DNA from: Rhodothermales bacterium
GTDB lineage: Bacteria; Bacteroidota; Rhodothermia; Rhodothermales; Bin80
Reading direction: 5' to 3'
Assembly: GCA_022821385.1 (NCBI GenBank)
Contig: JAJEDR010000027.1
Span: forward strand, 1-36,765
Length of the DNA: 36,765 bases
Under the pieces are notes generated by a model that saw only the letters and a list, made by a program, of their open reading frames with translations, did no database searches and had not been told where the DNA came from. Below are positions 11,333 through 17,714 of the stretch, piece by piece (the stretch's first letter is position 1; each line of letters starts with the position of its first letter). The position numbers and the translations under genes are program-made.

Positions 11333-11903
11333 TGAAATTCTCTGAGATCAACAGGAAGTTTTGTAGAAGCTCGTGCCCTGCTTCGCTCAATATTGATTCC
11401 GGATGAAATTGGACGCCAAATGTAGGATGCTCCTTGTGACGCAATGCCATGATCTCTCCACCCACAGATTTAGCCTGAACTATCAAATCAGTATCAGAAA
11501 TCTCTGCCACGATGAGGGAGTGATATAGACCTGCCTTCAGCGGATTGGGTAACCCTTTAAAGAGGTCGCAGCCATTATGCATTATGGGGCTTGCTTGGCC
11601 GTATTCTGGAAATAGGGAGTTCTTTACGACACCACCATAGGATTGTGCAATCGCCAGATGGCCTAGGCATACGCCCAGAATTGACAATCTACCTGAATAA
11701 TGTGAAACCACATCCATGCTGATGCCAGCTTCAGTCGGCGTGCACGGACCTGGCGAAATCACCAGTGCTTTGGGAGCCAAAGCTTCAACATCATCCAGGG
11801 TAACCTCGTTAGAATCAACAACTTCGGTTGTCTCGCCAAGCTCCTGGAAATATCTACTCAGGTTGAAAACAAAACTATCTCGATTATTCAACAGCAGGAT
11901 CAT
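11307..11903 (-). CDS. pabA: aminodeoxychorismate/anthranilate synthase glutaminase subunit
   Basis: This is a 198-residue class I glutamine amidotransferase that supplies ammonia to the chorismate-binding subunit. It begins MILLLNNRDSFVFNL, typical of PabA/TrpG. The oxyanion segment SPGPCTP (50-56), nucleophile Cys79 in GVCLGH, and the His167/Glu169 pair in FGVQFHPES are all present. The residue after GVCLGH is leucine rather than the usual glutamine. The chosen start, ATG at 11903, shares bases with the pabB stop (TAATG), pointing to translational coupling; an earlier in-frame ATG at 11930 would overlap pabB more deeply. The pabB-type partner makes p-aminobenzoate the likely product. The same subunit could also serve tryptophan synthesis if no separate trpG exists. 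Confidence 0.9.
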   Translation of the reverse strand: MILLLNNRDSFVFNLSRYFQELGETTEVVDSNEVTLDDVEALAPKALVISPGPCTPTEAGISMDVVSHYSGRLSILGVCLGHLAIAQSYGGVVKNSLFPEYGQASPIMHNGCDLFKGLPNPLKAGLYHSLIVAEISDTDLIVQAKSVGGEIMALRHKEHPTFGVQFHPESILSEAGHELLQNFLLISENFNVLHRAIK

Positions 11904-13267
11904 TAGGCAACCACTTCTTCTGTGCTGCACAGTATTTTCTGCGCCTTCAGCAAGGTTTCAGAATACTCCTCATTTGGATTGGATAAAGAGGTTATTCCAC
12001 TACCCACATCTAGGCGGGCACGGTCGCCATCAAACTGAATGGTCCGAATCATGATGTTAAAGTCTGCTGCGCCGTCAAACCCGAAATAACCGAATGAGCC
12101 GCAAAAGGCACGACGCGAATTTTGTTCTAAATGATCAATAATCTCCATAGCACGACATTTCGGCGCCCCCGTAACCGACCCCCCAGGGAATACTGCAGAC
12201 AGTAGATTGAACGCATCGTGTTCGTCCCCGAGCTGCCCGCGGACGGAAGATGTGAGCTGATGTAATCCGGCATAGGATTCTAGAGTGCAAAGCTCTGAAA
12301 CTTCCACCGAATGAGGCTTGCAAACTTTTGACAGATCATTGCGAAGTAAATCAACAATCATGATGTTCTCGGCACGATCTTTCTTTGATTTGAGAAGCCT
12401 GTCCTTTAACCGTCGATCTTCCTCAGGATCATCTGACCGCGCAATCGTCCCTTTGATCGGCCTTGCTTCGACCATCCCCCCATCATCCACAGTAATCAGT
12501 CGTTCTGGAGAAGTGCAAGCAATGCTGCGCTCCCCGAAAGTACCATAAGCAGAGAATGGGGCCGGATTGCTCTTTCGAATGGAAAGATATACCTGTAACG
12601 GGTCTGTAGAATGGGGCACATTTGCTTCGAAAGTATGTGCAAAATTTGCTTGGTAAATGTCGCCCGCTCGAATAAAATTAAGAATGTCATTTACAGCTCT
12701 CAAATAGGTCGTTTTTGAAATCTGGTTACGCCAGGCGAGGGGTACATCAGAGGTAGAGGAGGATGGTAAGTTGCCGATATCTCGCCTGACCGCATTGATT
12801 TTCGCTTGGGCTATATGCCTGCAAGGCTCGTATGCCCCGCTTTTAAAACCCGATGAAATGATCCATGTAAGGTCAGCGTGATGATCAACAGCAATGATCG
12901 TGTCATACAACCTGAAGTGACAATTTGCACGGCTCTGAATGCAAGATACAAGCGTGTTTCGTGAATTAAGTTCTGAAAACTCGTAATCGAAAAATCCGAC
13001 TAATCCTCCTTGGAATGGGGGCCCCTGATTAATATGACCGGATGAGTAACGCCTAAGCGCAAAACGCAAATCATCTGTGTTTGCCGCAGCCGGGAATGAT
13101 TCGATAGGATCAATACAGAGATAAGAATAGCGACCGAGTCGCTGCATATTGGATGAGCTATCCAGCCAGATCAAACCGCGGCCTTGCGCATACTTTTGTA
13201 CCAAAGGCTGCAGATCTATTGCAGCTAATTTTTGTGCCCATACCTTGGCACATTGCGAAGCGATCAT
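11903..13267 (-). CDS. pabB: aminodeoxychorismate synthase component I
   Basis: The 454-residue product is a chorismate-binding enzyme. The N-terminal ~160 residues are the divergent lobe. The conserved catalytic domain begins near residue 185 (ISKTTYLRAVNDILNFIRAGDIYQANF). The active-site lysine is present in RPIKGT (Lys272); this PIKGT form is the PabB signature, whereas anthranilate synthase has PIAGT. RAENIMIVDLLRND (298-311), LHQLTSSVRG (335-344) and PGGSVTGAPK (361-370) complete the family motifs. With PabA it converts chorismate and glutamine to 4-amino-4-deoxychorismate. It is the first gene of the pabB-pabA-pabC operon. An AGGAG sequence sits about 14 bases ahead of the ATG, rather far for a ribosome-binding site. 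Confidence 0.92.
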   Translation of the reverse strand: MIASQCAKVWAQKLAAIDLQPLVQKYAQGRGLIWLDSSSNMQRLGRYSYLCIDPIESFPAAANTDDLRFALRRYSSGHINQGPPFQGGLVGFFDYEFSELNSRNTLVSCIQSRANCHFRLYDTIIAVDHHADLTWIISSGFKSGAYEPCRHIAQAKINAVRRDIGNLPSSSTSDVPLAWRNQISKTTYLRAVNDILNFIRAGDIYQANFAHTFEANVPHSTDPLQVYLSIRKSNPAPFSAYGTFGERSIACTSPERLITVDDGGMVEARPIKGTIARSDDPEEDRRLKDRLLKSKKDRAENIMIVDLLRNDLSKVCKPHSVEVSELCTLESYAGLHQLTSSVRGQLGDEHDAFNLLSAVFPGGSVTGAPKCRAMEIIDHLEQNSRRAFCGSFGYFGFDGAADFNIMIRTIQFDGDRARLDVGSGITSLSNPNEEYSETLLKAQKILCSTEEVVA

Positions 13268-13937
13268 GCGAGTTGGATGTCTCCTATTCCTGCATTAGAA
13301 AATGATTTTACCGCATACTTCGACCATATGGATCATCGTCCGAATTCCAACCATTTAGACCAATGATTCTGGGCCATACGGTCCACGGTGCTGAGCGAAA
13401 TAGGCTAACCATGTGTTGTTAACCCGACCTCCATGATTTGCTGGATTTATCTTCATAGTTGATAAACCTGTCCGTTTGACGTCGATGATACGTTTTGGTC
13501 TGGTAACTGGTACCATAGAACGTCGTGCTGAGCCGGAATTGATCGCTAAGCTGGAGTTCAACTTTTAGACGAAGACTCTACCCTAAACCTCCTACCCTTA
13601 TCATTAGTACCGATTCTGAATCAATTCACTACTCTGTGAGGCAAGCCATTCTCTTGGTTTTCGACAGACCCTCGAGCACCCAGCCTGATCAGCACTCGAA
13701 CCGATAAGATCATGCCACCCCGTATATCTATCCAGCCCAACGAAATAACGCAGACTACAAGAAGAAGACGGAGATATCGTAGAAACTGCGCGTTTGGTTT
13801 ACACCAGTAGCGTAAGGCCCGGCGCAGGAACCTGTAATCTTACGATATCTAAAACCGAACATCTTCCTTCCAGCCGTATCACATTTGATGTCAGAATTTC
13901 ACTATACTTGCCCTTGCCTCGCTAATTCTCACAATGT
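13268..13937. other. long intergenic region between divergent pabB and sterol methyltransferase genes
   Basis: I see no gene, tRNA or clear hairpin in these 670 bases. A 68-codon leftward frame at 13355-13561 has no recognisable features. Near the right edge, TATACTTG (13903-13910) is one base from the Bacteroidota -7 box TAnnTTTG, with a TTG 15 bases upstream. The spacing is shorter than usual, so it is only a weak promoter candidate for the methyltransferase. Confidence 0.4.
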
Positions 13938-15017
13938 GTGAATAACCAAAAAGCCTATTTCGATGTACCATTCATTTATCACTTAGATTTCATGGCCCTG
14001 GTATCCCGAAAAGAATCCAACGCCCATTCTCCGATTCGCCTTGCCCCGACGGAGGTAAAGCCCGCAGTCACTCGCTACGAAAATCTCCACGACGGTGAAC
14101 TTGCAGATAGAAAGGAGAATTATCGGTCGCTCGTCAATGACTATTATGATCTTGTGACAGATTTCTTCGAATTCGGCTGGGGGCAATCCTTCCACTTCGC
14201 TCCCCGCCGCCGAGGCGAATCATTCAAAGAGTCCCTGCTCAGGCACCAACGCTTCCTCGCCGACCAGTTATCCTTGAAACCAGGAATGCAGGTGTTAGAT
14301 GCTGGCTGTGGTGTCGGAGGGCCGATGGGCAACTTTGCCCGCTGGTACGGTGCCGATTTCGTCGGGGTCAACATCAATGCTTACCAAATTGAACGCGCTA
14401 AAGGGCATATCAAGGATGTCAGCGAACTCTGTCGCTTCATCCACGCAAGCTACATGCAGATTCCCGAAGAGAATGATCACTTCGATGCTGCATTTGCAAT
14501 TGAATCCATGCCGCACGCCCCCGACAAAACTACTGCATTCCGAGAGATCTTCCGTGTACTTCGCCCGGGAGCCTGTTTTGCGGGCTATGATTGGTGTCTC
14601 ACCGAGGATTTTGATCCCGAAGATCGAGAATGCCTGCAGATCAAACAGAACATCATGGTTGGAAACGGTCTGCCAGACATCAGTTCAACGCACGAGGTCT
14701 GCAACGCATTGCGCGATGCCGGTTTCGAAATTCTAGGAGCTCGCGACCTAGCACCAGATGCGGATCCGGATACGCCGTGGTTTCGTGCCCTTCAAGGCCG
14801 CGATTTCTCACTGATGAGCATTCCTCGCACACCAATCGGCCGGAGCATGATGAACCTTACCCTGCGGATAGGGGAATGGTTACGCCTGGCCCCACAAGGG
14901 GCAAGAGCCGTCAGTACTTTCCTGAATAATGGAGCAGATGCCTTGGTCAAAGGAGGCGAAAGTGGTGTTTTTACACCAATGTTTTTCTTTCTGGCAAGGA
15001 AACCTGCGTGTCCTTAG
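13938..15017 (+). CDS. sterol 24-C-methyltransferase (SMT/Erg6)-like methyltransferase
   Basis: The 359-residue product is a class I SAM methyltransferase with the full set of SMT regions known from Erg6. The sterol-binding region I is YYDLVTDFFEFGWGQSFHFA (69-88). The SAM loop is LDAGCGVGGP (120-129). Region III is FAIESMPHAPD (186-196), close to the eukaryotic 'YAIEATCHAP'. Region IV is GYDWCLTEDFDPED (216-229). The C-terminus (PMFFFLARKP) matches a sterol-MT C-terminal domain. SMTs transfer methyl groups from SAM to C-24 or C-28 of sterol side chains; here the substrate is inferred. The GTG start at 13938 is uncertain, and ATG 13992 is an alternative. The gene stands alone, with no squalene or sterol cyclisation gene in the window. 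Ubiquinone or tocopherol methyltransferases are less likely because regions I and III are SMT-specific. Confidence 0.87.
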   Translation: MNNQKAYFDVPFIYHLDFMALVSRKESNAHSPIRLAPTEVKPAVTRYENLHDGELADRKENYRSLVNDYYDLVTDFFEFGWGQSFHFAPRRRGESFKESLLRHQRFLADQLSLKPGMQVLDAGCGVGGPMGNFARWYGADFVGVNINAYQIERAKGHIKDVSELCRFIHASYMQIPEENDHFDAAFAIESMPHAPDKTTAFREIFRVLRPGACFAGYDWCLTEDFDPEDRECLQIKQNIMVGNGLPDISSTHEVCNALRDAGFEILGARDLAPDADPDTPWFRALQGRDFSLMSIPRTPIGRSMMNLTLRIGEWLRLAPQGARAVSTFLNNGADALVKGGESGVFTPMFFFLARKPACP

Positions 15018-15527
15018 ACGTACGGGGTTCTGAAGTTGCTCCATTGGACGCAGACACAATCGACGATTCTACGCTCTGACGAGCTTGACGACGCACTTCG
15101 TAAAGACCAAGGTGAGTGCAGCGGGAAATACTGTCAGTAAAGTGTGCGGTCTAATAATGCCGTACGAAAAAAGACCCCCAGCCATATCTTGCTTCGGCCA
15201 TGCCATCCTCCAGGAAAACACCAACTACTCCGAGTATCCGTCGTATCTCTGAATCTGTGCTACCCACCTGAAAATCAATATTTTTTCAGTCTGCTCCATA
15301 CTCAGAGAACTAAATTATTTGTGCGGAGTAGACGCCCCAACAATAATCCTGTTCATTAGTTATTTTTGCTGGAGAGGCATAAAACACAAGTTTTTTTGCC
15401 ATTTATGCTTTTTTACACTAATTTCCTATGAATATAGCTGAATTGCCTTTTTTATTGTTCACGAGTTCGTACCTTTGAGCGTACCGAATCTTTCCCTCAT
15501 CAACCGTAAACACACTACGTTACACCC
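15018..15527. other. intergenic region upstream of glutamine synthetase III
   Basis: These 510 bases hold no supported gene. The 3' part becomes strongly T-rich (15360-15460), as expected upstream of a promoter. TACCTTTG at 15470-15477 matches the Bacteroidota -7 consensus TAnnTTTG, and a TTG lies at 15443-15445. The 24-base spacing between them is a little long, so this is a tentative promoter for the glutamine synthetase gene. No hairpin with a T-tract was found for the upstream methyltransferase gene. Confidence 0.4.
15470..15477 (+). promoter_or_regulatory. possible -7 promoter box for glutamine synthetase III
   Basis: TACCTTTG fits the Bacteroidota -7 consensus TAnnTTTG exactly. It lies 50 bases before the ATG of the glutamine synthetase gene, within a T-rich upstream stretch. 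The best -33 TTG (15443-15445) is spaced slightly too far away, so the call rests mainly on the -7 box and position. Confidence 0.3.
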
Positions 15528-17714
15528 ATGAGCCTCAGACTCCACAACATCGCTGCTGCGACTAAATATCGCGCCAATAACATTGATACTATTGAGCCGC
15601 CTGATCTGGAGGTCCACTTTGCTGAAAACACGTTTGGTATTGACGAGATGCGCAAGCGGCTGCCGAAGGAGGTATTCCAAGGAATGGTGAACTGTATCAC
15701 CAAAAGCTCTCCCATTGCTACGCACCACGCTGAGATCGTGGCGCTGACCATGAAGGAGTGGGCCTTGGAACGTGGAGCTACACACTTTGTCCACTGGTTT
15801 CAACCGCTAACAGGTAAAACCGCTGGTAAGCACGACAGCTTTATTAATCCGACCGATGTCGGTAAGGCTATCGCAAGCCTGCGCGGAGGAGACCTCATTC
15901 AGGGAGAGCCAGACGCATCCAGCTTCCCGAACGGTGGCCTCAGAGCTACCCACGAAGCACGCGGATATACGATCTGGGATCCTTCATCACCTGCCTTTTT
16001 GGTTGAGAATGAGAACGGGAGTTACCTCGCCATTCCAACATGTTTTGTTTCATGGACCGGTGAAGCGCTTGACCACAAAACACCGCTTCTACGCTCCATC
16101 GACGCGCTAGACAGGCAGGCACGCCGTGTCTTACGCCTGCTCGGTGAACAGGTCGAACGCGTACAGACAACTGTGGGGGCGGAGCAGGAGTATTTCCTGA
16201 TTGATGAGGAATACTTCTACCGCCGTGCGGACCTAGTCAACACAGGGCGTACACTTCTCGGTGCCACACCTCCGAAGGGACAACAACTGGATGACCATTA
16301 CTTCGGAGAGATTCCAAGTCGAATCCTTGCGTGTATGCTGGCAACCGAAAAAGAGCTCTACCGTCTAGGCATCCCCGTTAAGACCCGCCACAACGAGGTT
16401 GCACCGAGCCAGTACGAGGTTGCACCGGTCTTCGAGACCAGTGGTATCGCCTCCGACCACCAGCAACTCATGATGATTACTATCAAGCGTATCGCACGTA
16501 AGCACGGTCTGGTGGCACTTTTACATGAAAAACCGTTTGCCAATCTGAATGGCTCAGGCAAACATATTAACTGGTCAATCGCTACCGATGATGGAAGAAA
16601 CCTGCTCAATCCCGGGGAGGCACCACATGACAATCTGATCTTCCTGGTTTTCTGCTCAGCAGTGATCCGTGCTGTATACAGACACCAGGACTTGCTTCGT
16701 ATATCGGTGAGTTCCGCCGGCAACGATCATCGTTTGGGGGCCAACGAGGCTCCCCCCGCTATCCATAGCGTTTTTCTCGGAACGCAGCTCTATGATCTGT
16801 ACCAAAAACTTATAGCCGGCGATGTGCCGAGTACTGCGAAAGACACAGACCTGTTTTTGGGAGTGAGTATGCTTCCGCTCGTACCCAGACACGCAGGGGA
16901 TCGTAACCGCACCTCACCATTCGCCTTTACCGGTAATAAGTTCGAGTTCCGTTCTGTAGGCTCCGATCAATCACTCGCCTTCCCGAATGTTGTGCTTAAT
17001 GCTTCGGTTGCTGAGTCCTTGCGAGACTTTGCAAACAACCTCCGCAACCGCCTACGGGACAGAGGCAACAAAGACCCGGATACCCTTAAAGATGTCGTAC
17101 TTGATATGGTGGCTGAGATCGCCAGAGAATGCAAGGACATTTTTTTCGAGGGAGATAACTATGCAGAAGAATGGCATCAAGAGGCCGAACGACGTGGTCT
17201 GCTGAATCTGCGCACGACAGTTGATGCACTCGAAGAGCTGACTTCCGAGAAAAATACCAAGCTGTTTGAATCCTTTGGTATCCTTAGCTCCTCCGAACTG
17301 CACGCCCGCTATGAGGTTGCCTTGGAGCAGTATGAGATGGCAATTGATATTGAGGCTAGAACATTGGAAAATCTCGTGCGAACACAAGTACTACCGGCCG
17401 GGTTCAGCTACCTGAATGAACTCACACAGACGGCTGCACAGACTAAAGGCGTTGGACTGAATGTGAAGGATTCCGTGGTCCCCGTCATCAAGACACTCAA
17501 CGGGACATTGTCCGAACTGGTTAGTGCTGTGGATGAGCTAACCAAGCGGCTGAATGTTCACCAGGAAAGCCTGCGAGCCGAAGCAATGCACAAAAAAGAC
17601 AGGGTCATACCTGCTATGCATAAAGTCCGTGAGGCGGCGGATAAACTGGAAGGCCTGGTACCAGAGAAGATGTGGCCGCTACCAAACTACGGCGAGATCC
17701 TGTTTGTACATTGA
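15528..17714 (+). CDS. glnN: type III glutamine synthetase
   Basis: The 728-residue length is typical of GSIII and far longer than GSI (~470). The N-terminal EVHFAENTFGIDEMRKRLP (28-46) and HWFQPLTGKTAGKHDSFI (89-106) are GSIII signatures. The metal-binding strand is GAEQEYFLID (217-226), and HNEVAPSQYEVAPVFE (288-303) and NLNGSGKHINWS (339-350) are the substrate and ATP sites. The C-terminal ~170 residues are helical, as in other GSIII enzymes. It makes glutamine from glutamate, ammonia and ATP in the cytoplasm and is often the main ammonium-assimilating enzyme in Bacteroidota. It is monocistronic here, with its own upstream region and a hairpin just after its stop codon. No glnB/glnK-type regulator lies beside it. 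Confidence 0.96.
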   Translation: MSLRLHNIAAATKYRANNIDTIEPPDLEVHFAENTFGIDEMRKRLPKEVFQGMVNCITKSSPIATHHAEIVALTMKEWALERGATHFVHWFQPLTGKTAGKHDSFINPTDVGKAIASLRGGDLIQGEPDASSFPNGGLRATHEARGYTIWDPSSPAFLVENENGSYLAIPTCFVSWTGEALDHKTPLLRSIDALDRQARRVLRLLGEQVERVQTTVGAEQEYFLIDEEYFYRRADLVNTGRTLLGATPPKGQQLDDHYFGEIPSRILACMLATEKELYRLGIPVKTRHNEVAPSQYEVAPVFETSGIASDHQQLMMITIKRIARKHGLVALLHEKPFANLNGSGKHINWSIATDDGRNLLNPGEAPHDNLIFLVFCSAVIRAVYRHQDLLRISVSSAGNDHRLGANEAPPAIHSVFLGTQLYDLYQKLIAGDVPSTAKDTDLFLGVSMLPLVPRHAGDRNRTSPFAFTGNKFEFRSVGSDQSLAFPNVVLNASVAESLRDFANNLRNRLRDRGNKDPDTLKDVVLDMVAEIARECKDIFFEGDNYAEEWHQEAERRGLLNLRTTVDALEELTSEKNTKLFESFGILSSSELHARYEVALEQYEMAIDIEARTLENLVRTQVLPAGFSYLNELTQTAAQTKGVGLNVKDSVVPVIKTLNGTLSELVSAVDELTKRLNVHQESLRAEAMHKKDRVIPAMHKVREAADKLEGLVPEKMWPLPNYGEILFVH

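Follow-up and report, generated by a model that had tools for sequence, protein, structure and literature searches.

Sterol 24-C-methyltransferases (SMTs) move a methyl group from SAM onto the C-24 double bond of delta-24 sterols, and C-24 alkylated sterols, chiefly 24-isopropylcholestane, are used in the fossil record as signs of eukaryotes and of the first sponges. We asked how an SMT homolog came to stand apart from other sterol genes in a Rhodothermales bacterium, and what it might do there. The window, the whole stretch of DNA analyzed, is 36,765 nucleotides long. We propose, at a probability of about 0.6, that the gene is a genuine bacterial SMT that arrived in a mobile sterol cluster, that the rest of this cluster was lost, and that the enzyme still alkylates the sterols of others. 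This proposal builds on the homology of the protein, the membership of its relatives in a sterol cluster, the wreck of a cyclase gene beside it, and a draft genome in which the pathway is missing.

Extent and identity of the SMT gene

The open reading frame at 13938-15017 (+ strand) was confirmed and encodes 359 amino acids from a GTG start. As many SMT relatives begin at residue 19 of this longer frame, we prefer the ATG at 13992 as the probable start over the GTG at 13938, which had been taken as the start in a preliminary description of this DNA and adds 18 residues. The gene has the following features.

13992..15017, + strand: SMT coding sequence, probable true extent (ATG start, 341 aa)
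14142..14201, + strand: region I, sterol-binding motif YYDLVTDFFEFGWGQSFHFA (YEYGWG type), aligned with bacterial relatives
14292..14324, + strand: SAM-binding motif VLDAGCGVGGP, aligned with bacterial relatives
14493..14522, + strand: region III motif FAIESMPHAP (IEA/S..HAP type), aligned with bacterial relatives
14631..14633, + strand: H232C codon; at no other column does the window SMT depart from a residue that all 19 other close SMTs share

The protein matched Sterol_MT_C (PF08498), the SMT-specific C-terminal domain (E 3e-21; 75.7 bits, cut-off 21.7), as well as Pfam methyltransferase domains; no NCBIfam profile scored above its own cut-off against it. Four SMT-specific regions had been claimed from the sequence. 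Region I, the SAM motif and region III are indeed common to this protein and its bacterial relatives in the alignment, and the region IV stretch is present, but its residue 232 is a cysteine, where all 19 other close SMTs have a histidine (H238 in yeast). This histidine is conserved among close relatives and is not known here as family-defining; another bacterial SMT, at locus L019, likewise lacks it.

The window SMT is 47% identical to Arabidopsis SMT1 and 38% identical to yeast Erg6 (both reference sequences entered by hand). The preliminary description had proposed phylogeny as a check on its assignment. In a maximum-likelihood tree with small-molecule methyltransferases from the same order as outgroup, in which the hand-entered Erg6 and SMT1 sequences stood for the eukaryotes, all SMTs separated from the small-molecule methyltransferases (support 100/100), and the window protein grouped with the SMTs, as sister to those of two genomes of the same genus, G031 and G032 (100/97). 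The PF08498 domain, the motifs and this placement agree with the original identification as an SMT homolog.

An AlphaFold model of the protein has a confidently predicted class I methyltransferase fold (pLDDT 85, pTM 0.86), and the solved structures closest to it are small-molecule methyltransferases, as would be expected of a merely SMT-like SAM methyltransferase with a non-sterol substrate. We consider such an activity highly improbable, as a better structural match is not to be expected when, according to a 2024 review, no SMT crystal structure has been obtained (PMC10968281), and as the SMT C-terminal domain, regions I and III, the clade placement and the repeated linkage of the SMT family to sterol genes all argue against it.

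Remains of a sterol cluster beside the SMT

Relatives of the SMT with 65-79% identity over the 341-aa form were found in metagenome-assembled genomes (MAGs) of about seven phyla, labeled Rhodothermales, Binatia, Nitrospira, Alpha- and Gammaproteobacteria, Gemmatimonadetes, Opitutales and Bryobacterales. The bin names CAR, COS, RHO and APA among them fit host species of a demosponge MAG set (PMC8163846); judging by these names, several of the relatives and the genus of the window appear to be sponge-associated.

In most relatives the SMT gene adjoins, usually tail to tail, a squalene epoxidase-oxidosqualene cyclase fusion gene (SE-OSC) of ~1140-1400 codons, which encodes squalene epoxidase together with both cyclase domains as a single frame; the SMT abuts this fusion in G031 and G032. 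Past SE-OSC the gene order is CYP51, ERG24, SdmA and SdmB, with ERG2 in some. The cluster CYP51 has Cytochrome P450 51 as its top PDB match (E 1e-96), and the best models for the Rieske oxygenase and the dehydrogenase are SdmA (412 bits) and SdmB (306 bits), both under the NCBI cut-offs.

Several side observations concern these clusters. The single-ORF fusion (e.g. L001:9060-12479, - strand) occurs in most SMT-bearing loci, across several phyla. A literature search of titles and abstracts returned none on a natural fusion of this type, and an LSS alignment of 3765 positions mentioned in passages of PMC9531527 would fit one. At L017:11011-12646 a frameshifted and truncated SE-OSC lies near an intact SMT, with a second SE-OSC copy at a contig edge of the same genome (G017:C13). 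About ten loci share, within the sterol cluster, a conserved 252-aa protein (L002:9127-9885) without a known Pfam or NCBIfam family.

The surroundings of the window SMT are as follows.

11903..13267, - strand: chorismate-binding enzyme (anthranilate/aminodeoxychorismate synthase I type), native left neighbor
13268..13991, no strand: spacer upstream of the SMT; its first part (13268-13448) corresponds to the pabB-proximal spacer in the same-genus genome G028, and no match was found for the remainder
15018..15242, - strand: SE-OSC pseudogene remnant, C-terminal residues ~1077-1131 joined to ~827-850, convergent with the SMT
15306..15527, no strand: native DNA just ahead of the glutamine synthetase III gene, with conserved counterparts in G028, G030 and G036
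15528..17714, + strand: glutamine synthetase type III, native right neighbor

Where positions 15018-15210 align to the 3' end of SE-OSC, 2 bases are deleted at one site, and there are several small insertions as well as in-frame stops. The stretch up to ~15242 matches SE-OSC residues ~827-850, so that ~670 bases are missing from inside the gene; this deletion appears to have run from one QW-type repeat to a similar one. A blastn search with 15018-15527 alone hit locus L071 at E 5e-20, and six further cluster loci were matched at E 1e-13 or better. The relic matches at 76-80% DNA identity, and its place and orientation are those of intact clusters, in which the SMT is convergent with the cyclase gene. 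No relics of other cluster genes were found in 13268-13991.

The two native neighbors are ~737 bases apart in G028, where no SMT lies between them, and 2,260 bases apart here; matching spacer ends bracket the foreign segment to ~13449-15305, the right edge being set by the region at 15306..15527. Eukaryotic contamination was rejected, as both flanks are syntenic with G028, which agrees with the bacterial setting first assigned to the gene.

These findings revise how the locus was first described. Its long flanks had been read as plain non-coding DNA, and the downstream one contains the SE-OSC pseudogene. The statement that no sterol-synthesis gene lies nearby holds for intact genes and fails for the wreck adjoining the SMT. 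The view of the gene as isolated and later inserted was half right, in that the adjacent wreck points to an SMT that came with a sterol cluster and was orphaned by deletion.

The 47% identity to plant SMT1 (hand-entered sequence) might be taken to favor transfer of a single SMT gene from a eukaryote such as a sponge host. We regard this origin as extremely improbable. The closest relatives are bacterial cluster SMTs with up to 80% identity and the same 3' neighbor, published trees set most bacterial SMTs apart from sponge SMTs (PMC10070321), and the SE-OSC relic also speaks against it.

Probable loss of the pathway and retention of the SMT

The preliminary description had called for a genome search for squalene epoxidase (SE) and oxidosqualene cyclase (OSC). 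In the window genome, a draft MAG of 96 contigs that is 97.6% complete, we found no intact copy of either, nor of OSC/SHC, SE-OSC, ERG24, a CYP51 orthologue or ERG2 anywhere in the 96 contigs. With the intact OSC, CYP51 and ERG24 of the cluster absent, this is a former and not a present sterol cluster. The genome has two PF00494 proteins, which could serve either squalene or carotenoid synthesis. As a separate observation, PF00494 ORFs of ~640 codons, about twice the usual length, occur in G029 and G031-G035 (L147-L152) and are absent from G000, G028, G030 and G036.

Given the draft state of the assembly and the cluster carried by relatives in the same genus, a de novo sterol pathway could in principle persist in the genome and have been missed. 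This is very improbable: the SE-OSC expected beside this SMT is itself in the window as a wreck, the searches listed above were all negative, and a second, unlinked and wholly unassembled cluster would be needed.

An SMT beside an SE-OSC wreck, in a genome that lacks the pathway, instead suggests that the whole cluster arrived and was then lost. We propose that the SMT entered the lineage with a horizontally mobile cluster of sponge-associated bacteria (SMT, SE-OSC, CYP51, ERG24, SdmA and SdmB), whose later loss would have left the intact SMT and a broken SE-OSC stub between the pabB-type and glutamine synthetase III genes. The enzyme would still bind SAM and alkylate C-24 of delta-24 sterols of the desmosterol type. 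With no endogenous sterol, its substrate would have to be external, taken up from the host or from neighboring symbionts, so that the cell would tailor sterols without making them. As no intact sterol-backbone gene was found in the draft genome, the use of outside sterols, already suggested from the sequence, is the natural reading, and the SMT most likely alkylates sterols made by other organisms.

The main rival to continued function is that the SMT was recently orphaned and is drifting to decay, its cluster and substrate gone and its frame so far unbroken. Constraint was judged by pairwise dN/dS, branch lengths and private changes. Against G031 and G032 the open frame has a dN/dS of 0.08-0.09, at a dS of about 1.6, which is so near saturation that a recent loss of constraint would stay hidden. 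The H232C change hits a position that does not vary in the other close SMTs; the SE-OSC relic, at 76-80% DNA identity, can still be recognized, so its loss need not be old; and SMTs in this genus do decay, as two genomes, G033 and G034, show the reverse case of an intact SE-OSC with SMTs broken by stops and frameshifts (SMT pseudogenes lie at L134 and L137 in G033 and at L136 in G034). However, the SMT frame is intact next to an SE-OSC that already has several frameshifts and stops, and its terminal branch is not accelerated (0.15 versus about 0.158 for its sister).

Retention of an SMT after loss of SE-OSC also recurs elsewhere, which argues against decay. In the Bryobacterales loci L016 and L023, homology to the intact L015 cluster breaks off shortly after entering the 3' end of SE-OSC, at positions that agree to within one base, and a search of both genomes found no SE. 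In the Gemmatimonadetes locus L007, homology to L017 reaches ~20 bases into SE-OSC before it ends, and ERG24 has been retained. Thus, SE-OSC loss with the SMT kept is seen in Acidobacteriota and Gemmatimonadota, making three phyla with the window. Furthermore, four genomes of the same genus (G028, G029, G030 and G036) carry a divergent type-B SMT, ~43% identical, without SE-OSC or ERG24, and these orphan SMTs are intact. Weighing both sides, we hold decay to be unlikely, though far less so than the other alternatives, and favor a functional SMT acting on outside sterols. We also raise, as a tentative suggestion, that sponge symbionts repeatedly drop sterol synthesis yet hold on to the final, alkylating enzyme, with close relatives taking the opposite course of losing the SMT and retaining the backbone genes.

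In addition, a 680-690 aa ORF combining GPP34 (Golgi phosphoprotein 3-like) and cytochrome P450 adjoins the type-B SMT (L003:3985-6054, L143, L144, L145), in Nitrospira and in the genus of the window.

Comparison with known SMTs and sterol clusters

The retention of a last step after loss of its pathway suggests that such bacteria may tailor the sterols of other organisms. If so, sterol alkylation would be a trait of the holobiont, in which some bacteria make sterols and others alter the side chains of host or neighbor sterols; missing backbone genes would then not exclude a genome as a side-chain source, and the orphan SMT makes sterol exchange inside sponges testable.

The SMT family, bacterial SMTs and horizontally spread sterol clusters are known (PMC10070321, PMC9531527). 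Brown et al. 2023 (PMC10070321) describe bacterial SMTs from sponge symbionts, from Chlamydiae and from Sandaracinus; many of these enzymes were active in vitro, and many are encoded in sterol clusters that also hold sdmA/sdmB and OSC. Passages of PMC9531527 describe clusters of steroid genes (CSGs) in Ircinia symbionts of 10 phyla, including Rhodothermia, with an ERG24-CYP51-LSS core and SMT or FDFT1 on the opposite strand, the SMT at the 3' end, and report horizontal transfer and purifying selection. With SMTs thus widespread in sponge symbionts, the earlier remark that bacterial SMTs are rare is dated. The literature searched, with partial coverage, yielded no report of cluster loss with SMT retention, and the passages of PMC9531527 mention neither the orphaned state nor the SE-OSC fusion.

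The cluster of the relatives is of the same kind as the Ircinia CSGs, as far as the passages of PMC9531527 describe them, whereas in the window genome only the SMT is left. Eukaryotic Erg6 and SMT1 share regions I and III, the SAM motif and the C-terminal domain with the window SMT at 38-47% identity (hand-entered sequences), which differs from them in its bacterial clade and genomic setting and in having no endogenous sterol supply. The bacterial SMTs of PMC10070321 belong to the same enzyme family. One of them, the Chlamydiae enzyme, likewise comes from a MAG without other sterol genes, and in vitro it performed the methylation steps as far as the 24-isopropyl stage, so that use of an orphan SMT is chemically possible (PMC10070321). 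In comparison to these enzymes, the window SMT carries H232C and keeps beside it, as the SE-OSC pseudogene, an in-place record of its cluster.
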